Source: Tomocerus qinae
Lineage: Eukaryota; Arthropoda; Collembola; Entomobryomorpha; Tomoceridae
Direction of reading: 5' to 3'
DNA: 64,000 nucleotides
NCBI GenBank assembly: GCA_020055645.1
Contig: CM034547.1
Coordinates: 44,098,409-44,162,408 of the forward strand
Below the pieces are notes generated by a model. The model was not told the DNA's origin. It made no database searches and was given only the letters and a program-made list of their open reading frames with translations. Below are positions 1,385-62,938 of the stretch, in pieces; positions within the stretch are counted from its first letter, which is position 1, and each line of letters begins with the position of its first letter. The translations under genes were made by a program, and so were the position numbers.

Positions 1385-4300
1385 TTAATACGGCCGAAAG
1401 AATCCTCCATTAAATCTTATAGATTGTTCCGCATGAGTCTTACGAATTCCAGGAATATTGGAAGAAAGCATGTAGTCGCGTCTAAATTCCGGAACTCTCG
1501 GTTGATGAACATATTGATGCCGGAAGTATGGACGCTCATCTTCATCTTCAAGTTGATTCCGATATGAGTGCTGTTTGTGCTGTAGAGGTAAATACCTTTG
1601 CATCGGAGGTTTATTAGCTCCATTATTTTTATTATTAATTCCATTAAAAAGGAATGAGTAGACACCGGAGGTTAAAGCTTGGACAGGTGATGGAGGTTTG
1701 GGAGGGAGATCATCTTCGTCACTGTCTTGTCGTTGTCTACGGTAAGGAACTGCAATCAAAGGACGGCGAAGTTGAATTTGTCTGTAGCGATCTATAAAGC
1801 TGGGAGGCAATTCATGGTGTTCACTCTCTTCATAATCTTCTTCTGAGCTTTCTTCACTCGAAGGTTTGGGCTTGCGCTTCTTATTTCGTGTTATTTTAGA
1901 ATTTCTTCTATTACCTTTTGCTTTCCGACTACGTGATAATTTTGATTTTTTCTCTTCATTATTAAGGAGACTGATGACTTCGTTCATATGTGAGGCAATT
2001 CCTCGAGGAGTAGTTGAAGTCGTAGTAGTAGTGGTAGCTTTTGTAGGTAAAGGTGAGACAATATTCAGCTTCATATTAGACTTTGTTTTGACTTTGTTTG
2101 GTTTTCCCGGCCGTCTTCCACCGACTGCCTGCTCATTATCTTCATCAGATTCTTCTTTGGACTGTTCGTCAAGTAATTTAATCACTTCGTCAATTTCTTT
2201 CATATCTGGATCTTCAGTAACTTGCACGTATTGATTTGATTTTGATGGCTTTTCAGTCGCATCGCGTAGTTTCCCGCTCTCCATATTGCGAATAAAACTG
2301 AGCAGTTCATCACTTTCTCTTTGTTCTGCTTCAGTTGCAGTCTGGAATTGTGGACTTACTTTTACTCCATCAATTTTCTTCTTTGGCTTTTCTGCCAACT
2401 TGAACGCTACTTCAAGCTCTTTCAGGTACTGCTCTGGTGGTACATGATAAGATGGTTTCGGTTTATTTGTATATTCATTGAATATTTTCGGTTTTACAGT
2501 AGTAGTGAAAATTGTTGTTGAACTTGGTAACATTGTGCGGTGCCCATTCATAATTTGGTTAAGAAAGGCTTCCGCAGCAATTCGTTGGGGTGACATTGTC
2601 GTTTTCTGTGGAGCTACTGTGGCTGGGATTCGATTTATTTCTGCCGAAGATTGGTGTTGAAAATGGAAAGTAGCCCCTTCCGATCCTTTATACTGAGTAG
2701 AAGATGTATTGCCCGTTTTTGGTGGTTGGCGATGAAGAACAAACTCGGATCCAGAACCTTCATTCGGGTGGGTGAAAATATGTTCTAGTGGAACCCATGT
2801 ACCATCTTCTTGCAAGCCCTCTGATAATGTGGTCGTAACGAACTCTGTTGATGTTGCTGTGGATGAAATAGTACGGGTGCCCGGGTCTACGTCAAATCCC
2901 ACAGGTAATAAATATCCTTTCTCTGTTGTTGTAGAACTATGATGCATCATAGGTTTAGAAAATGAATATCCGAAATTCTCGCCCGAAGAAGGTTTTTGTG
3001 ATTCTTTTTTCGGCGGCAATTTATTTATATTAATTGGTTCGCTTGTATGAAATTCAGGGAATGGTTCTGGTGTTGTTGTTAGATTAAAAAGGTTTAGAAA
3101 ATTCTCTAAAAATGGTTTTGTGATTAAAGTATTGGATTCAGTACTCAAAATAGGCTGTATTGTCCTTAAAGTAGGTATTGGAGCTTGCGTTGTTCTTCTT
3201 GTGGTGTAAGATAAAGGAAAGGTCTGACTTTGATAATTCGTTGGTGAAGACTGTGGTTGGAAAATCTGTGTTTTCTGAGGAGCTTGAGTTGGTGAAGGTT
3301 GAATGAGAGTATTCATAAAATTTTGATAATTAACTGTGGGAGCAGGCGTTGGGATTTGGTTTGATGCTGGAGAGAAAGCATTAGGAACGGAAATAGGAAT
3401 ATGTAGCAGTGGTGGTTGTTGATAAGCTGGAACTGGAGCTGCTGCAGATTGGTAGCTCTGCAGTGGGGCAGGTGTAACAGGAGCTGTTTGCTTTCCAGTT
3501 AATCCCTACACAAAAGCAAAATAAAATTTTAGTGAGAACGATAAAAATGTGGCTTTACTGGCTTTGATAATACAAGTTAGTTTTCACCAAATGAAACTTA
3601 TTTTAATGAATTACACTATATATTATTCACAATCTCAATAAAAAGATATCGTTTTACATCGCTCATTTCATTAGTAGTAGGTAATAGATGGTAAATGTAA
3701 TAATACTAAACTTACGTTTAACTCCGATCCTAGATTCACAACAACCTGAACATTTGTGCTAGGTTTCGTCGCGGTGCTAACTATTGAATTGGAACCTTGT
3801 CCATTGTTCGTTAAAGAACCAGTTTGTTTCTGCGGTCAAATGGAAAATGAAAGTAACCACATGAGTACATGTTGATGAATATTTTATTATGTAATACGAA
3901 AGTGTAAACTTAACAGCTCGACTTACACTATTGTGAGTAGGAGTTCCCGTTAGAACTCTTCTTAAATTATTCACCAGTCTTGATAAAGTATTTGGTTGAA
4001 AAGGGCAGGTGTTAAATAACCTTCGACATTGTCGGCCACTTCTGTATTTCTGACCTACATCCGCTGCAATGCGGAATTTTTCATCTGTGCTTACTGCCTA
4101 AAAGAAAACATGTGTATTCCCGTAGGTAAGTAAAAGAATTGAAAATGCAAGGTCAAAAATCATCTCTCTTTAAGAACCGACCTTGAATTACACGATACCC
4201 CCGAGCATGTGACCACAGTAAAGGTCATGTGTTTTTGAAATAATATGTTGCAAAACTAACCTGCTTTAGCTCTCTTTGTTTTCTTGAGAAGAAAGCCAAT

Positions 4301-7300
4301 TTCTCCATTCTCGGGTTTCTGACCTGAATATTCTTGTTTGCTTCTAATTTCTCTGTAAATACTTCCAGATTTCTTGAAAGTCTAGGCTTAAAACGCTCAA
4401 ACAGCTTCTTTAAATCAGGATCCGTCGCAACTTTCATAAAATCTTCGTCATAAACCCACGGAGGTTTTGTAGACGTCGGTATTCCCTTGCGTAATTTATC
4501 TCTTTTACGTTTTGCGTTCATATCTGCCATAACAAAGCCCAAATTATCAGGATCGTCATCAACAAGCTCTGAGTACACTTGGTCTTCCAATTCAGACTTT
4601 TCTTTTAGAGCCATCAATTCAAATATTTTATCTAGTTCTTCATCTGATTCTTTTTCGTCGCTATCTTTCTCTTCATCTTCTCTGTCGTTGTCGTCATTAT
4701 AACTTTCTAGCTTTGTAAATATATTGTGGTATCCGCTACTTTCCTTCCCGTCGGCTTTATCCGTTGCCCTAAGTAGATCAAAAAATGACATTTACACAAT
4801 CGGCGTGATAAAAATAACTATTAATAAACCCTTTAAAACTTAATATGCTACTTAGTATCACTTAAAATCACGACTGCTTATGTGCTATAAAAATTCAGTG
4901 AATTCATGCGGCAAAAATAAAAGGTTCATATCACAATTTCATCGTAAGAAAGTCCTTACTATTTGCAACATGGTAGATTAAAGATTACTTGTTTGTTTAA
5001 TTCTAATTAGCAGATAAAAATTAGATACTACATGATTCTACTTTCTCTTGCCCTAAAGTATTTCCGTTGTTATTTGCGTCATTTGCATACAACTAGCGTC
5101 AGTTAGGACTACGACTGCTACTTTTTAAATAGTTGCAGGTTTGACAACCAGCCATGAGTTTGACATTAAAATGCATAAAAAGTATAAATATGGATATCTA
5201 GTATTAGTAGAGATTTACATCACGTCTTTTACTATCGAATTACACATCACATTGATTTAATTTACCGGTTAGTACAGTCAGTACCTAACGATAATGATAC
5301 ATGCTGTTGTCAATGTTGTTTCTTGTTTGAAAGCGAGAAGTGGAATAACTGGATTATTAAGTGTGAAGTGTGAGAGTCATTATGCAAAAAACAGTACCGT
5401 ATAACCGTATACCAATGAAATTTTTATTGGTTGTTGACTCACATTTTAATGGCTGTGAGATACCGAATGGACGATAAAATATACTTCAACGCTTCAAGTT
5501 AGGTTTACTACAGATTGTTACCACATTAAAATAGTCTAAGTCACTGTGGCATACATACAGCCAGATTTAACAAGACAAGAACTTTAACAAGGTTAATATT
5601 TAATATAATGTCTGTTTATTATTATTATTAATTTCGATTGTCATCGTTGCTTTATGTGAACATATTTTAATACTATCTTCATAAGTGTTGTGCATTTAGA
5701 ATGAAAATGATGGGAATATGGGAAACCATTTCACTATTTATGGCGTACTTGTTGCACTTGTGGTTGTACAGATATTACATTTTAAAGGAGTTTTATCTGT
5801 TATTCCAGTGAGTTTTCAAATTAAATAGTTGAATGAACATACAGAAGCAAATAAGCCATAAAACCACCATAATAGGGTAATAAAAATTATATCGTGGGAG
5901 AAATAAAATGTATAGGCTCGTAGCATACGTAAACCTAGTATCTAACAAAGTCATATCTATTAAAGAGATATACTCGGTTAATACTCGGATGGTTATGATG
6001 AATGAACGTGGACATGTTGACATTGAAATTGATACTTATTCCATTGTTTAATTCTTATATTGATAGGATGTAGTCAGAAAACTTTTACTTCAGTCAGTGA
6101 CTATAGTAAAACAACAATAATAGTAATGCATAAGATCTTATCATTTTTCTCATGCCGGCTTTCTGTTTTCTTTCTTATCGCAAAACATGATCTAAGATGA
6201 ACAACGACCTGAGGTGGTTTTAATGATTTAAATGTTCATTTGATTTATACACTCTGCTCACACTCCTCCTTAGAAATTTTAATATTTTACTAGTTTGATC
6301 TAGCTTTTAATTTACAATTCAACTCTACACGTATTGATACTATGATAGGCTGAATGAATATTTATTTTCTTTCTTCTTATATTGATTATGCCAATTAATA
6401 TTATTTCTGGGAGTATTTTACATCCTTACTCTACATCTAACAGGTTGCAATGATTAATATTCGCACTAATAGTTCTAACCATTTCTGGTCAGTACTTATT
6501 TGCTATGCAAAACAAAATAGTATCGAAAAAAATATGCACTAATGCAGTACAATAATGAGTGGCAGTTCTAAATATTTACACTTCTTTTTGTTGCGGATTT
6601 GATATTGGCTGGTGATTCGATTTAACTAAAAGCCAAAAGCGATTATTACTTTTAATCTGTGTTAACTATTTGACTACCCTACGTACCCTTATGTATGGAG
6701 TAATAACTTGAACCAAACGTGCTTACACGCAATGAGCTTAATTGTAGTGTATCATATGATTTTAACTACATAGGTATACAGATGTTGGACACAAACATTC
6801 ATCAAAGATATGGTATGCATGATGAGTTACAGTCCTATATACTGATCAATAATTCTGAGTATTATTCTACCGAATTTCATTTAGAATACGGTTCAATGTT
6901 ATGTTAAAGTATTGGTTGAATTACAATGTCTGCTAATTCAAAATTCAGCATTCATTGCACACGCAAGCTACCTATCACTGAGGCAAATTGCGGAAAAAAA
7001 TTATTATAATTAAATTTTGCTTTGTATTGTAATTATATGTTACTTTAATTGCATTGTATATTGACAAAAAGCATCTTTGGGAACCAAGCTTCAATAGATA
7101 GCGGTTCACTAATATCTTGTTCTCACAGCCTACTATTTCGCCTCACCCTTTTTACTGATTGATTGATCTCAATACCTATAATATTTTCTTGGTCACATAT
7201 TCACCGTTTATAATTGCTTAATTTAAGATCCCCTCTATATACTTCGACTAGTTTAATTCATTTCTACAATACATGTTTCTTCAAGGCTTATTAGGAATAT

Positions 7301-9724
7301 TTCCTTGAGTTTTTGGTCATAATCATAACTATTTACCATGCTTTGATAACCTTAGTTTAGATTTTGGCAATAATTGGCTGAAATAATTCAGTCTAGAGTC
7401 TAGCCTTAATAAACTTATAATACAGACTCAGACGCATAGACATAAAGTACATATAATGCAGATAATTAACCTAATAATACTGGTGTGGGTAGGGTACAAA
7501 ATTTGAATAGTCTGAGTGAAATCAAAATGTGCTTCTGCTTTTAGCCGTTGATGTCAAAATATGAATGGATGCAAACAAGTAGAATTATCAATCTAAATCT
7601 CATCACCTACGTGTACGACAAGCAGATGTTTTTAAGTGAACAGACATTGAACGTGTTTTGGTTTTCATATAAAGAGAAGTCTGACAACAAACGGGTAGAT
7701 CTTTTCTATGCAGCTTTTTTAGTAGTATGTAATCTACACTCAAGAACTAGGTATAGTAATACTGTTTGAATAATAATATAACGAAGCCTGAAACGCACGA
7801 ATTTGATTTTTGGCAAAACTCAGTATATTTCATGTTTCTATATTATTTGCTTACATTCGCTAGCTTCCCGTTGATTCTGCAACAGTCTTTTGTTGGCTTA
7901 TTAGTCTTTTCAATGGCAAGAGCATAGGATATAATATTTTGTACACACATAGAACAGTCGCATTCACATTTATTAATCTACTTGATGCATAGAGAATGAA
8001 ACGAGTGAATGCAGAAACTTGTTAGAATAAATTACTTTCATTGTTTTGTGAATGCAAATTAAGCAAAGTTGTGACTCGCTTTGCATAGATTTGAAAAGAT
8101 CTAGTCGCTCAGTGATTAATAATGAAATAGTGAAAACAAATGATGAAAATGAATTAGTAAATTCAATGGAAAGTTAAAACAATGTTAATGAAAGGGTCTC
8201 AAATATCTACTGTCAGTTTCTATTTGCACTTCATTCATCATGGAAATTCGATGATAATATTTCTAGTTCAGTATGCAGAAGTGTGTGTCGTATGTCTTTA
8301 TGTAAAGTACACATGAGATCGATTACTTACTGCTGGAGTACTTCTTTCATCAGAAATTGGTAGTCATTGATGATATCTTCTGCTTTCGTTGATGGAGAAG
8401 ACGCCGCGCTGCATAAAAGCTGAGGGAGACAATTTAGGGGATCCTGAGCGATGAGATTTTGCAAAAATCGACCATCAATTCGACGACTCTGATGGTGTCT
8501 TATGCTCTCATTTTTTACATTTGGTAAAGATGGAGTAAGGTCTTCTTGTACGCTACGTATTCCTCTCTTATGCAGAGCCCGACCCTCTTGTGGAGTCACT
8601 AAAACAAAGATAATCATTTTCATATTTTAACGATTTTCTTGAGAAAATCCGGTTTTTGGTATTAAAGTAAAAACTTGTATTTTGTTTTACACATCCAAAT
8701 TGTGTGTACACGCAAAAAGGGTGTAAACTTTAAAATACCTCCTAATTGACTCGGAATAAAAACTAACTTTCTTTAGTGGTGGCTATCTAACCGACGAGAT
8801 TAGGAGCACAAATTGATGAAACCATGATATCATCAAATAAAGCTATGCATAATTACATTATTTGAAAGTCTGGTATAGGTATAATGTTTTTCAGATCGTC
8901 TTTCTTCAGGTACATGGTACATATGAGATTTTTATGGTTTGCCCTACTTTGTTTTTACATAATATTTTATGAAGTGATAATGATGGTTAATTTACTTTCA
9001 AACTTTTTTGTTTCGTGTTCTTCAATTCTTAACTTATGTGACACTTTGTGAATTGCCACGTCTTTGATTTGGTGGAACCAATTAAATATTTGGCGAAAGT
9101 GTTATCTACTGATATAACAGATGCTAAACTGTATTAAAATTTTTGGAATATTCAATACTCGGTACTCAGATACCTAAGTAAATTAACAGTTTGACAGTGT
9201 ATATGTAGTACCTATAATGTATCACATGAACAAATAAACTATGCTGCTCTATGTAGTAGCAGTAACCAAAATGAAAGATTTACATATCATTCTATTATCT
9301 TGATTTGTAGGTGACATGCATATGCTAGTGTACTGGTTGACTAGCTGAATGCTAATGTCATTTGTAGTAGCACAACAATTTACAATTTAACAAACAACTA
9401 TTGGATTTCATATAATGTTAGTGATATTAATACAATTTAGTCCAGAAATCCGCAGTTGCAAAATTTAAACTGGCAGAACGGAATACATATCAACAGTTGA
9501 ATTAGTACTGTGATGTTTGCTATTCAAATAATTTTTAAAATTGCTTTACCAGCCATAAGAAACACAATGAATGAAGTCAGTGTAAACGTTCCAAGTAGAA
9601 ATCCGGACATTATTGCCAACACAAATGTAGAAAATCCCACAGCTCCGGATAGAGAGCAAGCTTCTTGAACACCAAATATGAGGAAAACAAGGCCAGCCGG
9701 CCAAATGCGAGTAGAAAATTTCAT
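1385..9724 (-). CDS. Gene A: secreted acidic four-cysteine family protein, 6 exons, 1118 aa
   Basis: Function unknown. Exons by splice sites and phase: 9724-9550, 8598-8331, 4768-4261, 4097-3927, 3829-3716, 3505-1385 (stop TAA). Exon 1 gives a signal peptide (about residues 1-24) followed by a second hydrophobic stretch to residue 58, so a membrane-anchored form is possible. Exon 2 holds the first cysteine pair (C115, C121, motif NCLPQLLC) and the NDYQFL helix. Exon 3 is acidic and ends RKQRELKQ. Exon 4 holds SGRQCRRLFNTCPF (C341, C348). Exon 5 ends VQVVVNLGSELN, close to an exon of gene F. Exon 6 (707 codons) is Pro/Thr/Ser-rich, then acidic and basic with SSEESSEED, and ends in an aromatic/Arg-rich tail. 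The start is the ATG at 9724; the same frame reads upstream only from a TTG. It is the leftmost copy of the minus-strand array. The product is probably extracellular. I could not attach it to a named family. Confidence 0.85.
4769..8330 (-). other. Intron 2 of gene A (3.56 kb)
   Basis: This is bounded by a GTAAGT donor and an ACTTAG acceptor on the minus strand. Short ORFs inside have no coding character, and no repeat element was recognised. Confidence 0.7.
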
Positions 9725-13590: not shown

Positions 13591-16404
13591 TTAGTCCCCA
13601 ATTGTCCCAAACGCTGGCGGTGGTGGAGGTGGGGGTGAATTTTTCTTCTTGGATAAAAGATCGCTGAATTTAGATTTCTTTTTCCCCGAGTCTTCTTCTA
13701 AACTCTCTTCATCGTCTGTTTCTGCGTCGAAATCCACAGATTGGAAAGGATCTTCTCCTTCCTCGGATGATTCTTCTTCAATGACAGGCTTAACAGGCTG
13801 CTGATTTTTGATTTTATAATTATTTACCAGTTTCTTTTCCACATAAGGATTATTTAGAACCTGATCGAATTCATCATCTTCCCATACACTGGAACTAGCC
13901 TTTTCATTTGAATCTTCAAGAACTCTAATTCCTGAGCTTCCGGTTCCCATTCCATTGAGAATTTCATCATAAATATGACGGAATGTAATAGGAGTCCCCG
14001 CCTCGTCAGCACTGTATGTGAGATTGTTGATCCTTTCTATAGCAGAAAAGGTCGCTGTTAAGGTAGTCGTTTGATTTCTTGATTTCAAAATGTAGCCAAC
14101 CAATGGAATTATTTTATCTCCTGACGGGGAAACTATAGTTTGTCTTCGAAGAATTCCAGTTATGAGTTTAACCATTTCGTCGTAACGGAAAGGGCAAATA
14201 TTCCCGAGAACTGTACATTGTTCTGCTGGAGAACTACTGAGTTTTGTTCCTAAATCGGTAGAGACTCTGAGCAGTTCCAGTTTGTCCAGATCAACACTTG
14301 GCTTTAGCTAGAAACAGAAAATTCAGTTATATTGTAAAACATTTGAAAACAGTTAGTATTTTATTATGTAGTAGCGTATTTATTATCCAAATGTTGAGTG
14401 ACTATTGATTCGATGTTTCCAATTCAATTAGTGAATTGTGAACATGAAACTTTTTTGGCTGACAAAATAATTTATTGGAAATTACGCCACCGACATAAGG
14501 TAATGTCAATCCGTTATTTCTTTTCGTCTTTCTAATGAATGGACAAAGTGAAATAATGCATTGGTAATATATGCAAATATATTTGTGTAAGTTAAAGGAT
14601 TTCATTGCATGTAAGTTTACATTATAACTCATCGAATTAAGACTACAGATAGTACTTCCTTTTTGGCATAAAATTCTACTATAATCTTTACTAATAATCA
14701 CCTAATGGTAAAGTAATAGAAGTAGATACACCTTAAAGTATCGAACGAAAATAGCGGACAACTTTAACAGCTGCATTGGTTCTTTCTATCTGATATGGCA
14801 GTGGTGATGCATTTTCGGCCTTTGGAACCTTTCAATATACGACCGTCAATTGTAACAATAAAATGAGACTTGCTGTCTGGGTTGTAAAAGCGGTTATATG
14901 TGTGTACTGTTTACATTAAAAATGTAAAAATCAATGTACATGCTCTACATGTATCGGCGAATCTTTAATATCTGAAATATAGTAGGTACCAATTACAATC
15001 CCATGATTACATATTCATAATACACTTCGCGTATACGTTATTTTGCAACATTTTTATTTTCTAGTGACCTACTAGTACGTTGCACATGGTTGCGGCTATG
15101 CTAATAGAAACCATCTCGTAATAATATATGTATGGGGAACAGCATGTGCCTTTGTTGTCTAAAACAGAACTTGATTACCATCCGGCAGTCCACTACTACT
15201 ACTTATGGATATAAACTACTGCAAAATTAACACACTCGATACTATGCGTGTATCGGCATATTCAACTAGAGTAGCTAAGTACAGATAGGAACATACCAAC
15301 CACACCGGTTTGAAATGTGGACTACGAACAATTAGCATTGTTGTACTTGAAAACTACAATTATTTTGCTCTAGAACATGTGTCAAAATCAAGTTAATATT
15401 TTTTATCGCATTCTAAAATTCAAGCCAAATCAAAAGTCTAAGGAGATTATAGTATATGGTATGCCAAGGTATTTGAAGAAGAGCAAACCTGTTCAAAGAC
15501 ACTCTGTTTGTTGCTATTCCTTTTGCTATAGTCCACTAACTCCTCCAACTCCAAATCATCTGCCATTTTCTCACTGAGAGTTCCAATTATTGACGGATCT
15601 CCACTACGTTCAGAGTAGCGTCTACCTTGACGGTATTTGGAAGAACGTAGTCGAGTTCTAATCTTGCGACCGACTTTATCGTCGTCATCCTCCTCTTCAG
15701 AATAATCCTCGTCATCTTCTTTTGTAGCTTCCTCGTCTTCTTCTGGCTCAGGTTTCTTCTCTTGTACGTCATCAAAGAGTTCGTCATCTTTTTTGGTGTG
15801 ATCATATTTACTTATCCTCCTAATTTTTACAAAAAAGAACACAGTAGGTAGTAAGTCAAAAGAGAAACACTTTAATTTAAGCACATTCCTTCACGAAATT
15901 TAAGATTATAAGAGTATCACTTGCATGTTTTCTGAACAAACACCTAATAATTATGGCACTATAAAAATTATAGTATACAATATTGTTTAAAATTCTTACG
16001 ATAATACAGTTCTTAGTAGATATGCGTAGTCATTAGTGGTGGAAGTACGTAGTGTAGGCGATTTAGGTGGGAATTTACTCAGCCCACAAACAACTCGGGA
16101 AAGACAGTTTAATGGATCGTTAAGAGTTATTTCATGTAAAGCTCTGGAACCCCTTGTGGAGTGTTCAATAGTAATTTTCTGAATCGGGCTGTCACTTTTA
16201 ATTCTAGGTAAATTACTCTTGATAGTCCATGTTGATGCTGAAGAGATCACTGTTCAAAAATTCAGAAACGAGTACATGATGTATTATTTTTCACAGAATT
16301 TATAAATATGAAACAAATGTAAATAATGCAATATTAGTAAAACCTGTTAATGTGCATAGTGCAAATCCAACGGCAGAAACGAGACAAGTTGGAATCTGAT
16401 ACAT
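13591..16404 (-). CDS. Gene B: secreted acidic four-cysteine family protein, 4 exons, 452 aa
   Basis: Function unknown; this is the shortest complete copy with all four cysteines. Exons: 16404-16344, 16249-16000, 15819-15489, 14307-13591 (stop TAA). Exon 1 encodes a compact signal peptide (residues 1-20) and ends in a phase-1 donor, making V21 across the junction. Exon 2 has DPLNCLSRVVCGL (C69, C75) and NDYAYLLRTVL, and ends phase 2. Exon 3 is an acidic linker (EEEDDDD type) and ends phase 0 after SVFEQ. Exon 4 opens with the second module, EQCTVLGNICPF (C245, C252), and continues through Thr-rich, ESSEEGED and EESLEEDSGKKK segments to a run of seven prolines near the C-terminus. The second module is the most divergent of the family: it lacks the RQC arginine. 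A motif DDEFDQVLNNPYVEKKL resembles one in gene E. Introns are 94, 180 and 1181 bp. Confidence 0.87.
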
Positions 16405-18291: not shown

Positions 18292-19892
18292 TTATCTGTC
18301 GTAAGGGGCCCACCCTTCACCAGCTAATTCATGACCACCTTTATTTTGTTGTTGCTTTTTGTAATTAGAATAAGTGACAAAAGCCCGTTCCCAGAATGAT
18401 CCTTTCAGTAGTTTCTGAGCAATTCCTGGTTTATATTTGTGAAGCGGTCCTTCTCCGTCCCAACCCCAACCATGTCCATGTTTTTGGTCGTGTTCCTGTT
18501 GGTCCTTCCATTCATGGTAAGAATGGAGGATTCTTTCCCATTGTGACCCACGAGTCCACTGTTCTAAGAGCCCATCTCGAACTTTATGGGGTTTGTGATG
18601 ATGTTGTGGGGGAGGGGGTGGGTGCCAAATCTTTGGTGGGGGTCTCCAACCATGACCCTTTCCTTTACCTTTTCCCTTGTTCTTCCCCTTCCCTTTCTTC
18701 TTACCCTCATGATAAGGTCCATCTGAACTTGTGACTCTATCACGGACAGGTTTCTTTTTTTCAGAATCTGCTCGATCATCCTGAGGTTCATCATTATAAG
18801 GTCCATCAGAATCCGTTACTCGATGATCATCTGTAACCCGCACAACTTCTCGATCATTTTCCCTTTTATTCTCCACAATATGGTCACGCTTAGGTTTGGA
18901 TGTTTTTATTTCCTTTTTAATTTTTGAAGCTGAAATTCTAGCTTGCTGTGCAAATTGTTTTGCCATTTCCCTAACGATTGCATCTTTCACTTCATCTGGA
19001 ATCAATTCTAAATTAGTTTCAGTCGAGTCATCTTCGTCCACTATTCCGACATGAGATAAAGCTTGGAGAGGAACTTTAGATGTCTGTCTTTCGTCGGATT
19101 CTTCTTCGTCTTCGTCTGAATTTGTTTCACCTTGTTCTTCAGACTCCTCATTTTGTTGTGGGGGCAGTTGAGATATTTCAGAGTAGTCTTCTGGAGGTCC
19201 TTCTAATTCTCCCTGAGGGAACTGTTCTTCATCTTCTTCCTCCTCTTCTTCTTCTATTGAAGAAGAAGATGGCACAGCAATTTCATCTTCGTCTTGTTCG
19301 TCGGAAGATGAAACAGCGGGATCGTCCCTATCCTCGCTTTCAACTTTACCAGCGGTTTCTTCAGAGGAGTACGTTTTCTTTGAACTACTACCTTGCTTTC
19401 TCTTGAGGACATAAGGGCTTTGAAGATGAGCTAACTTCCATTCCTCTGCCAAGCTGATGTAAGGATATGGTTGATCACTAACAACTTCCTCATCTTGAAT
19501 AACTTTGCTACCGGGCTTAGCGAAAGCATTTGCCACCTCAGAGTATTCATCCCGTATGCTCCCGTCTCCTTCTTCGTTTGATGGCATAATTGCTGGAACC
19601 GACTTTGGAACCCATATCTCCCGAGCATTGATTTCTAAACCAAATTGCAAATATTATATTATTTATTAACGAAACTCTGCAGATCATGAATAACTTGACT
19701 TATATTAATTATTATTATTATTATTAGATAAGGTTTGAATGTTTTACCTTTGGATATAAAAACTAGAGCCAATGGAATTTTTGATAGAAAACTAAAAGAA
19801 TTACTGCTTAGATAAGATGTACTTCCTTGGGGAATAAACACACTTAGAAAACATGCTAGCGTCCCTGCCAGCACAAATAGAGGCAGTCGCAT
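18292..19892 (-). CDS. Gene C: secreted acidic repeat protein without the cysteine modules, 2 exons, 495 aa
   Basis: Function unknown. Exons 19892-19748 and 19634-18292 are joined in phase 1, the same first-intron phase as the neighbouring family genes. The N-terminus (MRLPLFVLAGTLACFLSVF) is a signal peptide. After the signal peptide no cysteine remains, so both cysteine modules of the family are absent. The mature protein begins with a segment (EYSEVANAFAKPGSKVIQDE) resembling part of gene D. It then becomes strongly acidic (SSSSIEEEEEEEDEEQ, EESDERQ) and later basic, with two RVT(D/S)SDGPY copies and a GKGKNKGKGKGKG run. The last ~96 residues contain two ~50-residue repeats sharing the pattern GS-x-WER-x4-Y-x3-K-x-QQ. 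I start at the ATG at 19892 because the upstream in-frame codon is only a GTG. It may be a degenerate family member or a separate gene recruited to the array. Confidence 0.75.
19709..19726. repeat. (TTA)6 microsatellite in intron 1 of gene C
   Basis: Six uninterrupted TTA units lie inside the 113-bp intron of gene C. Confidence 0.85.
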
Positions 19893-45515: not shown

Positions 45516-45520
45516 ATATG

Positions 45521-47190: not shown

Positions 47191-47240
47191 CTGTTAGATT
47201 TATTTGACAAAGGGACGATGACGCTATTTGGCTAAACGAA

Positions 47241-47275
47241 CGATAAAATCAGTTCCACTTCATTTTCTCTGCAGT
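47241..47275 (+). promoter_or_regulatory. Possible core promoter of the cysteine-rich gene
   Basis: A GATAAAATC box sits about 30 bp before CTGCAGTTCG, a TCAGT-type arthropod initiator-like sequence. This implies a 5' leader of about 55-60 bases before the ATG at 47330. The leader is pyrimidine-rich. Confidence 0.4.
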
Positions 47276-47329
47276 TCGTACCTTCATTTTTTTCTCTCTC
47301 GAATTCTCCAATTTTCAACTCATTCAAAG

Positions 47330-47791: not shown

Positions 47792-47983
47792 ATTAAAAGA
47801 AGCAAGCAGAATGAAATATCGTAGTAATTTTATACTAATTCTAAATCATTTGTTGTGCTGTAGATACCTGTTTTACTATGTCCACAAACAAAAACTTTCA
47901 ATTGGCCATGTAAATAATTCTGACTATAACCTTGTAAATATAGTTGCGGTCTGTATATATATTGACTAAATCTAAATTTTGTA

Positions 47984-47989
47984 AATAAA
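47984..47989 (+). terminator. Probable poly(A) signal of the cysteine-rich gene
   Basis: AATAAA lies 193 bases after the stop codon at 47791, in a TGTAAATAAATACC context. Confidence 0.55.
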
Positions 47990-47994
47990 TACCT

Positions 47995-49056: not shown

Positions 49057-52000
49057 TTATCCATGAAAATGGCCTCCGAAATTTATATTCTTAAATCCAT
49101 TAAATAAGGTCGTCAGGTCCGGTAAAGGTAACACTGCAAGAGGACGAGGATCAGTGTAGACGGGATATCTATTACCATCTGGCCCTTCTACTTCGTAGGG
49201 GTCTCCACTGTCTGGAAGTCGAAGGCTAGGTATGCCATCATTAGGTGTTCCCGAATGACCTTGTCCCTCGTCTGAGGCATAATGTGGAGAATTTTCAAAG
49301 GGACCGTTGTTGCCAGAGCCACTCTTCTTATTGCCTTTTATAATTCCTGATCGTCCATTGTCTTCAGCTTCGAAATGAATTTCGGAAGATGCAGGGTACT
49401 GATTGTTGTTTGATTGCATCGGCATCCCTGATCGAAAATTATTATTATGTCGTTCTGGTCTTCGTGGAGATGATTTAGATGCTGAATTTGAATCAGAGTC
49501 TTCTTCGGATTCACGACTTGGTTTTGGAGTGGTATTTCTTAACCTAGGTCTAAATGTTGTCGTAGATTGCCTTCTTACTACCGCTTTGTATTTCATAACT
49601 CGTTTTGGTTTTAACGCAGTCGTGCTGGATACAGTTGTTGTGCTGTTGCTAGCTGATGTCTGCGAATTGTTTTTAACAGGAGTGCGATTTGAAGTTTTCC
49701 TCACTGGAACCTTTTCAATAGAAGTGTCTCCGGAATTATTATCGTAATCTTCATCATCTTCTGGTTCTGGTGGCAATGGAGGTAGATGTTGTCCGTTTAA
49801 GTAAGGATTTCTTTTGGGCTGCTGTGAAAATTGCGATTGATTTTCTTCTGAAAACTGAGATTGTGGCTGCTGTCCGAATCCGGGAATCACTTTACGAAGC
49901 GCCTGATGAATGGGTTCATTTTCCGGGGGTATATTTGTTCTTTCGCCTTCTTCCCACCCCTCGTAGTCCTCGTCTCCATCCTTATCCTTTCCTTTGTCCT
50001 TCTTTTTGCCTTTGCCTTTCTTCTTCTTATCCTTGCCTTTGTCTTTTCCGTCATCATCGTCAGCTCCCCATCCGTGGTCTTCATCTTCGTCCTTATCCTT
50101 GTCCTTCTTTTTCTTTTTATCTTTATCCTTATCTTTGTCTTTCTTTTTATCTTTCTTCTTATCCTTTTTCTCATCAGAATCATCATCCTCATCGGAATCA
50201 TGATGATGTGGGTGGTGATGGTGATGAGGATGTGGGTGATGGTGAGGTGTATGATGAAATGGCTCCTGGTCGTGCGGGTGGTGTAAATGACCATAATTAT
50301 GCTGCTCTTCCGGAGCTGTCAAAAATAATGTTTTAAAAATTATTACCCGAAATAAATATTCATAATCACATTATGGTAAAATGAAGTACCAATGTATTTA
50401 AGAATCTAGTATTTGAATTAGAATCGCATTCTTTTCCAAAAAAATATTTACCTGGGACAGACACAAAACCATCATTAATATGAGGAATGGGTAGCGCAAG
50501 TTCATAAGCATCAGGTGTGAGAGGAAATCCGTCATCGTGCATAGTCATAGATAAATAAATTCCTTTTGTTTTTGAAGGATCGTCATGATTAATTTCTCCA
50601 TGCTCTTGTCCATGTTTTGATGGAAGATTATTAAAATGAAATTGGGATGATTCAAGTGGAGCGTGATCTTCGTCGGAGTCATCTTTGTCCTTTTTCTTCT
50701 TCTTTTTCTTTTTATCTTTCTTATCATCATCCTTCTTTTTATCCTTCTTATCCTTGTCTTTCTTATCCTTATCTTCCTCTGAAGATTCTTCCTCATCTCT
50801 GAACTGGTTTTTCGTAAATACAGTTGGGGCAGGGGTTGGATAACCCTGATTGTAGAAGGCAAATGGGTGTTTGCTGGGCTGAAATAAAAAATATTCACAC
50901 ATTTAACTTCCAGAGTGACACTTCTATGCAATTAATGATATGCTGATATGCCATATACAAATGGCAGCTGTCCCCTACATAATGAATATATTGGGGACAG
51001 CTATTAATTAGACTTAAGCATTAAATGCTGAAAGCATATTATAAACAATAAAACTTTTTCATTAGATGTATTACCTTTTCATCTGGCTGGTATGGGGCCT
51101 TGTAAGTTAAGTAATGTTCAAAGGGGTGAGTTCCAGGTTCTTCTTTTGGAAGAGGATTAACTGGTTTCACACCAGTGAGACTGACAAGGTAAGACATAAT
51201 GTTGGTTTGAAGCGACGATGAAGGTGCTTCTGTGGGTAATTTTCCGTCGTCCTCTTCAGGTTCATCTTGATAAGGAAACGCGACTAGAGCTACCCGTTGT
51301 CGGGGAGGTTTCCCGACACGCCTCCCTTTAGCTTCACCCTCTTCGTAGTCTTCTTGGTCTCCCTCTTCATTTTCTTCTTCCTCTTCTTCATCCTCCTCAT
51401 CTGATTCCACTTTTGATACTTTTGTATTTTTACGCTTAGATTTTTTGAATTTTGGTACTTTATCGCTATTTTCGCTGAATTCGTCAATATGAAGGATTTC
51501 AGTACCATTTCCTCCTATGTCGGTAGATATTTTCTCGAATTCCTGATTGAAATTAGAACTTGTCGGTATTTTGATTGGCTGTGTAGGCCGTTTGGAAACT
51601 GAACTTACTTTGGGCCTGCTCCCTTTGGTCCCTTTAGGTCTGTCATAAGCCCCTGGAAGCAAAATGTCCGATAAGATGTTCAGTTTTTCTTTTTCTTCTG
51701 GTGACGGCAAATATGGATCTGGGGTTGTGGACACGTTGTTAAAATGTTGTTTTAGGCTGAATTTAATTTTAGGACGAGCATTTTTTGGAGGACGCTCCAA
51801 CTCTCCTTCGTCGTCCTCGCCGGATTCTTCGTCTTGCGGCTCTTCCTCGGAATCTTCACCCGAAGTATCATCTTGTTGTTTGTCATCAGACCCCGAAATA
51901 TCATCTTGTTGTTTGTCAGTCTCCGACATATTATCTTGCTGTTTCTTTTCTGGTTCGATGGACTCATTTTCTTTACTGGCAGGATTTGGCTTCTTTTTTC

Positions 52001-55000
52001 TTCTATTACTCTGCCCTTTATTTTTCTTCTTTTTCTTTCTCGAAGGCTGTACTTCTTCTTTGGGCCTAGGTCGAGAGATTCCAGCTTTAATGTATGCATC
52101 GATCAGTTGGCTCTCTTTCCGTTTTTTCTCCTTTTCATCTTCGAATGGATCATCTGCTTGTTGGATTTGTCCTTGTCCCCACGGTTTTTTCACTTTTTTT
52201 GTTGGATCTGGTCTCAGTCCAGTTGGTCTCTGATTATGATGAATTCCTTTTTGCGGTTTTAATTTTACTACTTTGTCCTCTTCTTCTTCTGATGATTCTG
52301 TTTGGGTAAGACTGGTAAGATCGGGACCGTCACTGAATAAATCGGGGAAAGCTGAAGCAACACCCTCATCATCTTCAGGACTATCTTCTTCCTCTTCAGA
52401 AAGTTCCCCGTTGGCGGCATCTTTAGCCACTATTTGAGCCTCCGTCGCCAATGCAAGTTTGTTCATTTGAGCAAGTGTCTGGAGAGTTTTCTTAAGATTT
52501 TTAAGATATTCCGTTGTTGGAACTTCCTTTCCGTCAATCAAAATTGTATTTGGTTTCTTATGCTTGCTATTTTTTGGAACGAGAGGAGTTTGATTTTCTG
52601 CATTTGCATTATGTTCCAAAACGCCTTGCAGAAAGTCAATAATTTTGTCCTGTGTTACTGGTTGACCTCCAGCAACTTGAGGGTACATTTGCATTATCAT
52701 CTCCGGCGTCATTTGTTGTGGGTACTGATACTGAGGCTGAATTGTTTGTGGATATGATTGTAAAGGTAACAACGGAGCAGTAGATTGCTGCACCATTTGT
52801 GGATATGGCTGCACAGGAGACAACGAGGCAGTCGGTTGTTGGACCATTTGTGGAATCGTAGAAGGTGATATTTGAGGAGTTTGGATGTTTTCAATTGGGT
52901 TTGGTGCTGCGGAAGCAGGTGTATCAGGTCCCATTGGTATCGGAATTTGCGGTTGCGGTTCAGAAACTGGATTTAAAGATCCTGCTTGCACCGGCTGTGG
53001 CTGAACCGGTGGAACAGGTAATGAGGCAGGCATTACAACTGGTGGTGGTGCTGGAGGTAAGATATTGGAACTTGCCTGGGCTGTGTAACCCCCATTTCCA
53101 TTCTAATAATGGGAAACAAAGTTTTTGAATGTTAAGAAGTAAATACAATGTTAAATATTTTAAAGTTTTATGTTTATAATAATAATTTAAGTCAATTACA
53201 TTTTTTGCTCCATTTAAATGAACGACGATCTCTACTTTGTCCACGTTGTTATTACCTCCTCCTCCTCCTCCTGACATAGTTTGGGCTTGGGGAGTTTGAA
53301 TCGGTCGCGAGAGAATACCTGGCTGGGCTGGAAACTATTAAAAACGTCAAAAGTAATGAAATATAATATGCAGTTGCAGGCAAAAATAAAATTAATGTAT
53401 AAAAACATATTTACAGATTGACTATTACTTAGATATTACATAATGTAGGTATACTAAATACTTGGGATCAGTGTTAGCATTACATATTACTGAATCTACT
53501 TTTAAATTGTGTTTAGCTATTTACAGTCGTGCAATTGCAATGCAACTGTACTAAGAAAAGGAAATTTTTTTAAAATCGCTACTTGTATCATTTTATTAAT
53601 ATTTATTTACTGACCGCAGGGAAAAATGCCGACGTGGGTTGGCTGACAGGTTGTCCCTGTAAAATTTTTCGCAAATTTCCTAGAATTTCAGTTATTTGGT
53701 CTGTCCCAAATGGACATTGATCAAATAAAAGCCTGCACTGTCTGGAACTTCTTAACCTAGATCCCGCCTCAGAAGCAATTTTCAGTGTTTTCTCTACATC
53801 TTGGGTCTGAAATTTGAAAAACAAACAGTATTACTTTTAAGACTACTTTTACAGCAAAAACGTTATATATTTTGGATATAGCTTTGTAACAAATTCGATA
53901 ACATTTTTAATTGAACAAAAATCACAATATTAAACCGTTTAGTCGTAACTTTACAAAGAACATGAAAATTTCATTGTTTAACCCTTAGAGACATTTTCAA
54001 CAGTTAATGAATGCATGAATGAATGTAGTTTATGATTCCATGCTACATAGCTGTCTAAGATCCCATCTCTAACAAAATAATTGTGAAACTAATATTATTT
54101 CCTATTTAGAAATTAGTCTGAAGTCCAAACAAACCTTATTTAACTCCTCTTTTTTCATTAACACGTATGTATTTGCCTCGGCAGATCCCATTTCCCCCGA
54201 GGATATTTTTGGAATCGTCGTAATATTTTCTTTAATGGAGCGACCAACCCGTAGTTTTAATCGAGGTATTTTATTTTTAGCCTCCTTCATGATGTACGAC
54301 AAAACTGAAGGCCCTTCTTCATTTACTAATTCTTCATCTGCCAAGTCTCCCAGGGTGGCATAATCAAATTCTTTATCGAAGTCTTCCAACTCTCCGTCTT
54401 CATCAACTTCATGTTCGAAAGGACGCCCTCCTTCTTCATCGTCAGAATATCCACCACCACCGTTCCTGATGTCATCTCTTGTGTAAGGATGCTTACTGCT
54501 TGGCCTTTTCCTTGTTTTGGTTTTCTTTTTATTGTCATCCTCATCCCTTTTAAAAAAGTACATTATAATCTTATTATTTCCATTTAAGAAAACAAAATAT
54601 GAAGCCAATAGTATTATACAAGGATATTATGTCCATAAGTAAGAAAGTGAATTAAGAAATATTTACGCTAGTAGATCGTTCATGAGGTAGACATAGTCAT
54701 TAAGCAAATCTGTGGGCAGAAACAAAAAAACATTCGTAATCCTGATTAATTCTCGGGTAAGATACACATTTTTCAGCGTAATAAAAAATTACGAACACAT
54801 CACCTGTTTTAGTAGATGGTGGTTGGGAACCGAGACCACATATTACTTTTGCAAAACAATTGTTTCTATTGAGAGTGCCAAGAAAAAGTCTTGCTTTGTC
54901 TTTAATCGTAGATTTCCCAGAGTCATCATCATCGTCATCGTCGTCTTCCACTCTTGACTTGCTACCAAAAATTCCCTTTTCAGAACGACGTGGTGTATTT

Positions 55001-56592
55001 ACTTTTGATATGGATGCTGCGAAAGTGGATCTGGTCATGAGATGGGTCACTGTTGATGTACAAAAAGTAAAACTTAATCATTTGTATTCCACGCAGAATG
55101 TGAAAACCAAAAGAGATAACTTGATTTTTAAGACCACAAGTAATACGTGTGTGTACAATTTGTAATGAACCCAAATACCTACTAAATATTAACATACGCT
55201 GGTACGTTAACGCACTAAACTAAATTCACTTTCCGTTTTGATGACGATCCCATTATTGTTACCATTTGCATACCAATTAAATTCTGAAAAGAATCAGCTT
55301 CTTTATACACAATATGCAATTATGCAAATGCTAGCTCTTGTCCTACATTGTGTGTGTGTTTTTTAAATCGATTGAGTTGAGTCCTTGTTACATGACCAGA
55401 ATCGGTTAATCTTGTAGTTAGTGTATAACAGGTAAAAATTACGATTAATATATCATTTGCCATATTCAAATCTTCGTTTGGTTTGCAAATGAAGACGTGA
55501 AGAGTGTGGTATATTTTTAGACAAGTATGTACCAATTTTACTAATTTTGTTTGTATTTAGTATTTATTTTACTGTTTGTCAGCAAAAATGCATGTTGTTT
55601 CCCTATTCATATCCCATCCATTCTAATCTTGTCTTATGTATATTCTATTCTATATTCCTATCCCACAACAGTAGGATGAGAATGTCAAAAAATTGAACTT
55701 TAAGTTGAACTGGACTATTAGGTTCGATAGATAGTATATTATAGATAGTTATAATAAAATTATCTGAGTGTAAGAACGAGGAAAGTGTAGTTGTCTGATT
55801 AGGGACTTAATTAGGGAGAACATTGCAAGGGTTAGAATTACGTTAAAAAATCATAGACTTCTCTTTTATTATCTTTAAGTAGGAGTAGGCCCCGGCAGAA
55901 TCACAAAACTTATTACAGAATCCGTAAATTCCGTTTATTTCTTAAAACAATAGTTACCTACTGGTATATGTAGAAATTTCTACTATATTCATGCCTTGTA
56001 TAATCAGTAACGATTAGGTTCTCATCATTATATCCAAGTTAAAGCCAACTCTATTAGTACTACTAGAATAGAGTAGACTGTACCTAGTACATCAATATTT
56101 TCTACATTTCCAAGGATTTGGTTTCTCTTAATAATTTTACCCATCTAGCAATTCTTTACAACACCTTAGCATTATATAAGTACCAGTACCTAACTAAATA
56201 ATATTATGTAGAACTAGTTGAATCCTAGCACACAAAATGTGCTAGAAAATGTTGCAATCAGTAAATTTCTAGCGACTGCGCATTGGCCCGAATTTCACTA
56301 ATTAATTACAAAATATTACGGACATAGAAACATACAAACATTTATTCAAGAATAATGAAAGAATCCCATGCGCATGCCCCACTTTATGCTTATGTAGAGT
56401 AAAGATTATGTTTATTATTGAATTTATATAGGTCTTACCTGTTAATGTTGTCAAGATCCATCCTGTGGAAAATCCATGAGGACTAGAAGAACTATGAATA
56501 ATACTAAATGGATATGCAGCACTTGCAGTTTCGCTAAGGAATATTCCAAATGCGAAATACGTTCCAATAAAAATTATCCATGCCACCTTCAT
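49057..56592 (-). CDS. Gene F: very long secreted acidic four-cysteine family protein, 9 exons, 1631 aa
   Basis: Function unknown. Exons: 56592-56439, 55049-54804, 54709-54667, 54546-54135, 53806-53615, 53334-53200, 53102-51075, 50878-50452, 50315-49057 (stop TAA); all phases agree. The N-terminus is a signal peptide (cleavage likely after ETASA, residue 25). C116 and C122 (NNCFAKVICGL) sit in exon 2, and the NDYVYL helix is on a separate 43-nt exon 3, so the family's second exon is split here. Exon 5 carries SSRQCRLLFDQCPF (C309, C316). Exon 6 has a Gly run and VEIVVHLNGAKN, matching an exon of gene A. Exon 7 (676 codons) is Pro/Gln-rich, then acidic and basic with TESSEEEED. Exon 8 has EESSEEDKDKKDK and Lys/Asp runs. 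Exon 9 opens His-rich (HHTPHHHPHPHHHHHPHHH), then has KKD/KDK runs and a Thr/Ser/Asn tail. The His cluster could bind divalent metal; this is inference. Confidence 0.85.
50966..51002. repeat. Hairpin in an intron of gene F
   Basis: AGCTGTCCCC and GGGGACAGCT form a perfect 10-base stem with a 17-base loop inside the 196-bp intron 51074-50879. Confidence 0.65.
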
Positions 56593-56599
56593 TGTGAGG

Positions 56600-59260: not shown

Positions 59261-59263
59261 TAT

Positions 59264-59684: not shown

Positions 59685-62600
59685 TTATCGCTCGTCATCG
59701 TCTTCTTCAGACGAAAAGTCCTTTTGTGCACTAGAGAGTTTGCTATTACTATGAGATTGATTTTGTGCCCTGACACCATGTTTCTTCTTGTTGCTTTTCT
59801 TCTTTACAACATATTTCCTCGGTGGTGTCTTCAGTTCAGGTACTTTGACACTTTTGATTGCTTCCTCTTGCGACCACTCTGATGGTGAATCAGCGGATGT
59901 GGTGAAACTTCTACAGTTAAACACAATAACAAAAGTTTCTATATTAATAGCATAAATAAAATAAATATATTTTCTCGAATGTTAATTTGTGTAAGGAATT
60001 ACGATGCAATTTTATCAAAGTCATCTTGAATTGAGCCCTCTTCTGATTTGTCACTTGATGCTGCTCCAAAAATGTTTTGGAAATATGTGCTATAAGTTGG
60101 TACTCCCCCTGGGGGCTGCTCTTGCACATTTTGATGATTGTAATTATGATTCTGGTTATTAATGTTATTATTGTTATTATTATGGTTACGTAGATGCTGT
60201 CTGGTATGTACACTATGACTAAGAGGACTGTAACCAGTTTGTTCTTCTACTCCTTTACTGTTATCTTGCATTTGTATATTGTATCCCTCCGAAGGAAGTT
60301 CTTGGGAGTTCGAATTCATGTTCGTGTTTTTGTTTTGATTTTTGTTCATTTTTATAATCACTCCTTGATTGGCAGATTCCAGCTCATCTTCTTCATATTC
60401 AGATTTGTTTTCTTCGGAAGAGGTATCTTTTGTTTCCATAAGTTGGATTGGCTTCTTATGTGATGAAGGCTTTTGTTTTCTTTTGTTTTTCTTAACTTTG
60501 GTATTCCCATTTCCAATACTAGGTGTAGCTATTGGATCGGCATCTGGATTTGGAGGGAAAGGACTCTCGCTCAATGGGGGTTCAATTTCTTCATTATCTG
60601 GAATCACCACTTCTGGAAGTGGAGGGGACTGTCTTTTAGGTTCGTCGTTGTGTTTATTGTGTTTATTTCCCTCTCCTTCGCGATTTTTGTTCTTCTTTTG
60701 ATTTTTCTTATTTTTTGGCCTATCGTCCTCCTCTTCGTTTTCATTGTCAACCTCGGTGTCATCGTCATCATCTTGCTCCTCATCTTCCTCTTCAACTTCT
60801 TCAGAAGATTCTTCTTCTCCGTCATTTTCTGGTTCGTCGTCGTTTGGCGCGTCATCTTCTTCATTTTCTTCATATCGAGACCGAGTAGGTCCTTCTTGTT
60901 TAGTTGGTCTTCCTTGCTGGTACCCTTGTGGCCTTCCACCATTGAAGCCTTGGGGTCCACCATGCCCACCAGGTCCACCTGGTCCTCCATGTTGTCCATG
61001 TCCACCTGGCCCTCCGTGTCCACCGTGACCACTTGGTCCTCCATGTTGTCCATGACCACCTGGGCCACCGTGTCCTCCTGGTCCACCGGGTCCCCCTTGA
61101 TATTGTTCTTGTTGGGATGAAAACGAGGAAAATAATCGGGTAAACAAACCTGGAGGCTCTGGTTTAGGAGTGGGTAATTCTTGTGGTTTCAGGTAAGGGT
61201 CTGCTTCCAAACTCCTTTCTTCGGATGAGGGATCCTTATCCTTGCCGCTCTTCTTTCCTTTCTTAGCAGATTTGTCAGCCACAGCTTTTTTGTCACCGGG
61301 TTTAACTTTAGGTTTGGGTTTGTACTTTTTACTTTTTGGTGTAGTGGAGATTGGAATGGCAGGTTCAGGTTCGTCAGCCTCTTCGTTTTCCTCAGAAAAC
61401 TCAGAGGGGGTTTCATCAAACGGTTGAGCAACTGGAGGAACAGGTCGGTTTCCAGGTCCTCCATAAGGTTGATATGGGCTTGGAGGGAAATTTTGTTGGG
61501 GTGAAGGGAAGGCTCCTTGCTGAGGAGAAGGGAAACCTCCGACAGGTGGTCGGTAAGGCCCAGCAGGAGGGGTATTCTCTACGGATTTGTCTCCTTCTCC
61601 ACTCTCTTCTTCTTCTTCGGATGATGGAGCAGGGATGGGAGATTTATTGTCTTTAATATTTTTCTTAGACTTTGACACTCGTGTGGGTTGATCATCGTCT
61701 ATATCTTTATCGTCCATATCTTCTTCGTCTTCTTCAACTGAACTAGGCTGGTTTTGGTCGAAATAGGGATTAGGAGGATGTTGGGGGCCTCCAGGTCTGC
61801 CTGGTGGACCACCTGGACCTTGTGGGCCAGCTGCATGTGGACCTTGTGGGCCTCCTTGGGGATACATACCTCCTGCTCCTCCGAATCCTTGTTGATGATA
61901 ATAAGGAGTTTCACTTCTGTAGGAATATTTTGGATTTTCAGCAGACCCGCCTTCTTCCTCTTCCTCGGATGATTCGTTTGGCTTTTTGGCTCCTACTTTA
62001 TTATTAACTTTCACTTTTTTGTCCTTATTTTTACCATTTTCCTTTCCCTTTTTCAAGTTCCCAAAAATATCAACAGACCCTTCATTTTTCTTGGTGGGGA
62101 AACTGTTTTCAAACTTTGTGAACCCTTCCTCGTCTTTTTCTTCATCAAAATTAGCATTTTCTGTATCAATACTATCTTTTTCGTTATCAGCGAACAAATT
62201 GTATTTTTGCACAGGTTGGATTTCGGTGTCTACCATATATTCGACATCGTCATTTTCCTCTTCACTTGTATCCAATCCATCGCGTAATTTTACTGGTTCT
62301 TGGACGGGTTCATGATGGGCAATCTCCGTTGTGGTTTCTACAACCTTTGGTGGTTCCACTACAGGGGAAGTGGTTTGTAAAGCCATTTTCTCATGCGTCT
62401 CTTGTATCTGTTTCTTTTTATTTGCTGTGGAAGTTTTTTCTGTCTCGGAAATCAAATTGTGAATTTGTGAGTAACTTAGTTCGCATCTTTGGAAGAGATT
62501 GCTGCATTGTCGAGCGCTTCTGATTTTGTTACCGATTTCGGCAGCCAGTTGAATAACGGCGGACATATCTTTAGTCTAGTATAGAAAAGGCATTAAAATA

Positions 62601-62938
62601 CATCTAAAAGGTACCTCTAATATAATAGCAGATAGATTTATCGATCATTCACCAACAAAAAACCAAGTTTGACAATTACCTGGCCTAATTCACGTTGTTT
62701 CTTCTCAAGGTAAGTCAAATAAATGGATGGATCACTAGAATTAGTCTTTTGTTTAGGTTCTTTTGCTTTCTTATTTGATTTATCTTTTTTAGGTTTGCCA
62801 GAGAGAGATTTTCCTCGTCTGTAGCCATTGTACGATCCATAGTTTTCATCTTCTTCCTCCTCAGATTCCATCGACTCAGAATCACTACCTTCGAAGCTTC
62901 GATTGCTTCTGTCCGCATCCTCCTCGTCAGAAGACAAT
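59685..62938 (-). CDS. Gene G (5' exons missing): acidic four-cysteine family protein, about 1018 visible residues
   Basis: Function unknown. Visible exons are 62938-62680, 62575-60003 and 59910-59685. The signal-peptide exon and the first cysteine exon were not found between 62941 and 64000 and presumably lie beyond the right edge, as introns of 1-4 kb are normal in this family. The first visible exon enters in phase 2, is acidic (ESMESEEEEDENYG) and ends LEKKQRELGQ, as in genes A and D. The next opens with TKDMSAVIQLAAEIGNK and SARQCSNLFQRC (C-x6-C). It then runs through repeated SSEE clusters, two Gly/Pro/His/Gln segments, a Lys-rich block and an Asn-rich block. The last junction is ambiguous: at 60003 the frame reads TC|GTAATT, which is either a donor into the 59910-59685 exon (ending FSSEEDDDER) or an immediate stop. 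I favour splicing because the downstream exon has the family's composition and the correct phase. Confidence 0.83.

Follow-up and report, generated by a model that had tools for sequence, protein, structure and literature searches.

A tandem array of springtail genes with a cysteine core best explained as a divergent, split DM4_12-type domain

Does a row of secreted-looking springtail genes with long low-complexity ends represent an undescribed arthropod family, or does its small cysteine core belong to a domain that is already named? The genes are located in a window of 64,000 nucleotides (the whole stretch of DNA that was analyzed), corresponding to C2:44098409-44162408 of a 334-Mb assembly with 115 contigs. 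We rebuilt the models of G1 to G6 exon by exon from the minus strand. This rebuild reproduced the seven minus-strand genes, arranged head to tail, that an earlier note had described from the sequence. The six completed models also returned the product range of that note (452 to 1631 residues), with open frames, GT..AG introns and terminal stops. The genes and their exons, with window coordinates, are as follows.

G1, 9724..1385, minus strand, 1118 aa
9550..9724, minus, exon 1, putative signal peptide and second hydrophobic stretch (from hydropathy), phase 1 donor
8331..8598, minus, C-x5-C half of the DM4_12-like core (NCLPQLLC), exon 2
4261..4768, minus, linker ('acidic') exon, phases 2 to 0, charge diblock, end RKQRELKQ
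3927..4097, minus, second core half (RQCRRLFNTCP)
3716..3829, minus, small tail exon
1385..3505, minus, last exon, long, low-complexity
G2, 16404..13591, minus strand, 452 aa
16344..16404, minus, exon 1, putative signal peptide
16000..16249, minus, C-x5-C exon (NCLSRVVC)
15489..15819, minus, linker exon
13591..14307, minus, second-half exon (EQCTVLGNICP) and tail with the module TATFSAIERINNLTY..GTPITF
G3, 19892..18292, minus strand, 495 aa
19748..19892, minus, exon 1, putative signal peptide
18292..19634, minus, single long exon without cysteine core
G4, 29725..23245, minus strand, 651 aa
29593..29725, minus, exon 1, putative signal peptide
27318..27576, minus, C-x5-C exon (GCLAKMLC)
24679..25018, minus, linker exon, end RKQREFSM
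23245..24468, minus, second-half exon (RQCRALFNTGFSFCP) and tail
G5, 41143..35908, minus strand, 666 aa
41098..41143, minus, exon 1, putative signal peptide
40389..40692, minus, C-x5-C exon (NCLSQLLC)
37730..38120, minus, linker exon
37382..37601, minus, second-half exon (RQC-x15-CP)
37171..37302, minus, small tail exon
35908..36815, minus, last exon, low-complexity
G6, 56592..49057, minus strand, 1631 aa
56439..56592, minus, exon 1, putative signal peptide
54804..55049, minus, C-x5-C exon (NCFAKVIC)
54667..54709, minus, mini-exon (NDYVYLMNDLL), also present in G8 and G9
54135..54546, minus, linker exon
53615..53806, minus, second-half exon (RQCRLLFDQCP)
49057..53334, minus, tail, exons 53334-53200, 53102-51075, 50878-50452 and 50315-49057
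G7, 62938..59999, minus strand, partial in the window, first exons beyond the window edge
62680..62938, minus, linker exon, end KKQRELGQ
59999..62575, minus, second-half exon (RQCSNLFQRC) and long tail

One exon plan is common to six of the seven genes, as had been proposed, the exception being G3 without its cysteine core. In all five complete genes with a core, the intron that follows the signal exon is in phase 1, while those on the two sides of the linker exon are in phase 2 (ahead) and phase 0 (behind); G6 contains one additional mini-exon ahead of the linker exon. G7 does start past the window edge: its C-x5-C exon lies just outside (C2:44163067-44163378), reads EICLPKVFCG and has a phase-2 donor. 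The finer features of the plan hold for part of the genes. The RQC-x6-C exon is exact in G1, G6 and G7 (and in G2 as EQC), whereas G4 shows C-x10-C and G5 C-x15-C. The KQREL-like end of the preceding exon is clear in G1, G4 (KQREF) and G7 and loose in G5 and G6, but absent in G2. The description of the products as acidic fits G2, G3, G5 and G6 (pI 4.8-5.6) but not G4 (6.3) or G1 (9.0); with a pI between 4.8 and 9.0, the products are polyampholytes. Hydrophobic starts are seen at the N-termini where signal peptides had been placed and, judged from this hydropathy, the products of the cluster are probably secreted. The picture of tandem paralogues in which a small core is conserved and the low-complexity 3' exons diverge is thus supported.

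The novelty of the core did not hold up. A Pfam scan of ten raw long open reading frames gave no usable match. We then joined the two cysteine exons of each gene, omitting the linker exon, and scanned 12 of the 13 cores of this kind known from the window and beyond (all except that of C2c). DM4_12 (PF07841) was the top Pfam match at E<=0.04 in six of the twelve, namely G6 (E=7.5e-4), G1 (0.005), G9 (0.006), G8 (0.01), C2b (0.02) and G4 (0.036). The match of C4a (E=0.21) is at noise level, and the scan returned no DM4_12 match for G2, G5, G7, C4b and C1. None of the twelve exceeded the Pfam gathering cut-off of 22 bits, the best reaching 20.6 bits. Ten shuffles of the G1 and G6 cores that kept the cysteines in place never matched DM4_12, while one of them matched PUF (E 0.09). 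Off-target families (Spheroidin, ANAPC3) also appeared at E 0.01-0.2, and single matches near 0.01-0.04 therefore carry little weight alone. When exons 1-4 of G1 were scanned with the linker included, DM4_12 was found at E=0.3 only. The linker in place thus nearly abolishes the match, which is why the core had looked new.

Both cysteine pairs are invariant in all seven aligned split cores, which are 23-35% identical to the G1 core, and an A-x3-G ahead of the third cysteine is mostly common to them and DM4_12. The spacing of the four cysteines (C-x5-C and approximately C-x6-C) is also that of DM4_12, which PMC12825958 describes with four highly conserved cysteines. DM4_12 forms one motif of about 115 aa; in the split genes, in contrast, the pairs stand apart, with 86-301 aa of linker exon between them. 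Since both the cut-off and this contiguity fail, the split genes are not filed as Pfam members of DM4_12. We consider the relationship of their core to DM4_12 very probable from these sequence features and the comparisons below. The best explanation of the core is a DM4_12-type domain that has diverged and is interrupted by the acidic exon. On this reading, the array genes do not form a new family but are relatives of DM4_12 with an unusual split.

Profile comparisons link the split cores to DM4_12 through short genes of the same cluster. Profile A3 was built from seven of the 13 split cores (without G7, G8, G9, C4b, C2b and C2c), A5 from four of the five short members of the wider cluster (without D1, which has a Ser/Thr-rich insert) and A4 from seven of the eight Pfam DM4_12 loci of the genome (without L009, whose second exon was not read and which is likewise left out of the intron count below). 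Each comparison was set against 150 column shuffles with fixed cysteines. A3 matches A5 with a probability of 97.4 and a score of 64.8, which none of the 150 shuffles reaches (maximum 26.3), and A5 matches A4 with a probability of 96.9 and a score of 58.8, again unreached by any of 150 shuffles (maximum 21.5). The direct comparison of A3 with A4 is weak (probability 23.9), one of 150 shuffles being equally good. In a profile search of the PDB, A4 had no match, and an apparent TPR identity of A3 with Pins (E=2.5e-7) was rejected as the sum of five repeats with a best i-E of 3. A single-sequence structure model of the core of L005 is poor (pLDDT 64.8, one helix). Rfam (gathering) and tRNA searches gave no match.

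The short members are located in the flanks. Motif and profile scans of a region of 180 kb, flanks included, revealed that the array continues past both window edges. The members beyond the window are listed below together with relatives outside the cluster.

D1, 44079 kb, left of the window, short member
D2, 44085 kb, left of the window, short member
G8 and G9, right of the window, minus strand, same plan as the window genes
D3, 44187 kb, minus strand, right of the window, short member
D4, 44189 kb, minus strand, right of the window, short member
D5, 44207-44212 kb, plus strand, right of the window, short member, followed by two canonical DM4_12 genes, also on the plus strand
C1, C1:49.40 Mb, relative outside the cluster, most similar to G4 among 14 proteins compared (E=1e-28)
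C2b, C2:6.24 Mb, relative outside the cluster
C2c, C2:6.05 Mb, relative outside the cluster
C4a and C4b, C4:8.65 Mb, relatives outside the cluster

The cluster extends over about 142 kb and contains eight split genes, seven unsplit genes and the coreless G3. A whole-genome DM4_12 search gave 12 matches at E<=10, eight of them above the cut-off. The canonical members thus occur in the same genome, and two of them in the same cluster (C2:44218493 and 44220766, about 56 and 58 kb right of the window). With their exons joined, the short members score 25.3 bits (D5, above the cut-off), 20.5 (D2), 17.2 (D4) and 12.5 (D1), and D3 has no DM4_12 match. Chd1-like and CTNNBL1-like genes, named by reading rather than by search, follow beyond the plus-strand arm. 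Between the arms lies another secreted-looking gene (C2:44204172-44205260, plus strand), which by reading has a Gly/Met-rich hydrophobic start and continues Gly/Tyr/Ser/His-rich, resembling a structural cuticle protein.

The relatives elsewhere were found with exon-derived queries, and the full exon plan was traced in C4a, that of the others in part. They number at least five, a lower bound because the genome search scores best candidates only. Elsewhere in the same assembly, we observed NRPS condensation domains in five long frames (1602-2456 aa) without interruption (C1:39-41, 60 and 108 Mb), which were perhaps acquired horizontally. Springtail NRPS clusters are described in PMC5490193, and the frames, like one weak 7tm_6 match, agree with a springtail as the host. 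Isopenicillin N synthase was rejected as the identity of a 2OG frame, which other iron/2OG oxygenases match better and which is therefore not diagnostic of the host. The assembly also holds several COI-like mitochondrial copies (C1:36670895, C1:139.1-139.85 Mb and C81), one of which covers all 328 aa of the query and contains in-frame TGA codons.

The position of one intron connects the three sets of genes. A phase-2 intron lies between the cysteine pairs in six of the seven DM4_12 loci that were read (L002, L003, L004, L006, L007 and L008), the seventh (L005) having both pairs in one exon. The same holds for all five short members (donors of D3 and D4 picked by eye; the D4 intron needs a GC donor) and for nine out of nine split genes, i.e., G1, G2, G4-G9 and C4a; in all genes other than G1-G6, the intron was read by eye. 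In the split genes, unlike in DM4_12, this intron is followed by the linker exon and then by an extra phase-0 intron. Being bounded by phases 2 and 0, the linker exon is not a symmetrical cassette, and we infer that it probably arose via lengthening of the following exon combined with intron gain. A truly new family, in which the likeness to DM4_12 reflects convergence on a C-x5-C / C-x6-CP pattern, would agree with the weak direct comparison of A3 with A4 and with a scan in which no core exceeded the cut-off and five of twelve had no match. It is nevertheless highly improbable given the phase-2 intron at the same place as in DM4_12 genes, the mostly common A-x3-G before the third cysteine, and the intermediates in the same cluster with their strong links to both A3 and A4.

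The 'acidic' exon itself encodes a linker with a charge diblock and motifs that are conserved in part. Among the cluster genes, this charged linker has a length of 86-225 residues, a further difference from DM4_12. We compared 13 linkers, those of C4b and C2c being whole open frames and not spliced exons. The second half is more basic than the first in 12 of them (C2c is reversed), and in seven of the 13 the asymmetry lies at or below 3% of 2000 shuffles. The motif FxxDPFFxxF is found in five linkers (G9, C4a, C4b, C2b and C2c) and an ELVxD-type motif in seven; neither count was reached in 2000 shuffles, both motifs having been picked after viewing the sequences, and neither is present in all linkers. 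A tail module, AIExINNxT..GxPITY, is common to G2, G9 and C2b. Given such conserved motifs, the acidic exon and, in some members, one tail stretch are not all filler.

The basic end of the linker (RKQR/E, KKQR/E, RKMR/Q) raises the question whether the products are two-chain secreted signal factors, from which the linker is excised or which are cut once at this end, with the chains linked by disulphides as in proinsulin. R-x-x-R or KKQR is indeed found directly before the phase-0 intron in G1, G4, G5 and G7, and the cysteine halves flank a spacer. This is quite improbable, however, as R-x-[KR]-R is not enriched (one found against about three expected in six proteins), no consistent dibasic site occurs at the N-terminal end of the linker, and G2, G6 and G8 do not have the basic cleavage site. 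There is also no insulin-type Pfam match, and the tails are hundreds of residues long, unlike those of hormones.

The long, charged and probably disordered tails are another difference from DM4_12. P, S, T, Q, G and N make up 0.34-0.42 of the residues of the six whole proteins, which are charge-rich with few hydrophobics, disorder being judged from composition only. In the same six proteins, SSE[ED] was observed eight times (0.94 expected) and S[ED]3 20 times (about 4 expected). Sites of this Ser-Glu type are used by kinases of the secretory pathway. Vertebrate SCPP/SIBLING clusters likewise consist of tandem secreted genes with Ser-Glu-rich disordered stretches, and the products might be Ca-binding phosphoproteins of a mineral matrix that work in the same manner. 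We regard this as improbable. Tandem clustering, signal-peptide-like starts and Ser-Glu motifs above the expectation from local composition in G1, G4 and G6 (which are enriched in SxE) are in its favor, but SxE is not enriched in G2, G3 and G5, G1 is basic, and springtails are not known to have a mineralised cuticle. The acidity of the array is not uniform, no related core is known in SCPP/SIBLING proteins, and the likeness is one of analogy only.

G3 can be placed through its tail. Its residues 49-130 are similar to a section of the G4 tail, with a local score of 66 compared to 60 for the best of 2000 shuffles, the segments having been picked after a blastp match of E=0.03. This likeness suggests that G3 is a relative whose core was lost while its signal exon and tail were retained.

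The earlier note had also proposed a rapid expansion after local duplication. Rapid growth of the tails is possible, but the array paralogues are diverged, with no alignable DNA. No pair of cluster paralogues in the 180 kb has a DNA match longer than 150 bp at E<=1e-10; this, together with the low identity of the cores to that of G1, implies that the duplications are old. The DNA matches in the 180 kb come from repeats and, in one case, from an unrelated gene that was duplicated recently. This gene is small and Cys/Pro-rich (MSCGRPSGGCPPPCCPPPCC...), lies within the array (window 47194-48042, plus strand) and has no Pfam match; an inverted 853-bp copy of it, 96.5% identical, is located about 67 kb off (C2:44213102-44213949, minus strand); judged by this identity, the pair is a recent duplication in an old cluster. 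An inverted repeat at window positions 45515-46591, with 378-nt arms that are 98% complementary and many AGGCATTAAGCTTAATGCCT palindromes, resembles a foldback element. An ORF that reads as gag-like lies just left of the window (C2:44090600-44095767) between two direct repeats of 499 bp with 99.4% identity and probably forms a young LTR element with them.

What the proteins do does not follow from homology, as DM4_12 is called 'function-unknown' in the text and 'transmembrane' in a table note of PMC12825958. Among the papers listed in literature searches, there was no functional study of DM4_12 (most 'Dm412' titles concern Drosophila transposons), DM4 and DM12 are not mentioned in PMC4883753, and nothing related was found on cuticle gene clusters of springtails. 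A guess at the cuticle comes from Osiris proteins. Two planthopper members (Osiris 17 and 24) carry DM4_12 (PMC12825958), and Osiris genes are reported to shape cuticle nanopatterns (PMC11151929). No protein scanned against Pfam, array proteins included, has a DUF1676 match, which sets the array apart from Osiris. Osiris (DUF1676) proteins are clustered, secreted-type proteins of arthropods.

The hydrophobic N-termini and the Ser-Glu-rich, charged composition agree with secreted matrix proteins that combine a disulphide node with a charged spacer, and a secreted structural or matrix role, e.g., in the cuticle, is a plausible suggestion that falls somewhat short of an even chance. Silk, glue, salivary or reproductive secretion proteins are possible instead, though rather unlikely: a secreted-looking tandem family with divergent low-complexity tails would suit them, but most tails are charged and have no silk-like repeat units (G7 has a Gly/Pro/His repeat stretch), and DM4_12 occurs in two planthopper Osiris proteins, whose genes are tied to the cuticle.

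For the matrix role, we propose the following working. The first half (C-x5-C and an NDYAYLMKTV-like stretch) and the second half (RQC-x6-CP) would rejoin after secretion to give a small module with two disulphides, with the linker looped out. The acidic first half of the linker may pair with the basic second half like a zip and so aid the rejoining. The folded module would then anchor or oligomerise the protein. In an apical extracellular matrix, for instance the cuticle, the polyampholyte tail with its Ser-Glu sites could serve as a spacer that is hydrated, can be phosphorylated or binds Ca. An old cluster of probably secreted DM4_12-type genes, whose split members work through such a module, linker and tail, is the best explanation overall, which we hold at about even chances. 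A bolder version is unlikely: here, a disulphide domain was made discontinuous in up to 13 paralogues of this genome by the insertion, at an old intron of the DM4_12 core, of a charge-zip linker that carries conserved motifs of its own and controls the assembly or cutting of the secreted module, with G3 later dropping the core but keeping the signal exon and the tail.

DM4_12 is widespread in arthropods, and annotation can miss genes such as these, whose domain match all but disappears when the linker exon is part of the query. As it combines short members of canonical-like form with long split ones, the large cluster reveals which parts of DM4_12 vary and gives material for testing the function of this domain.
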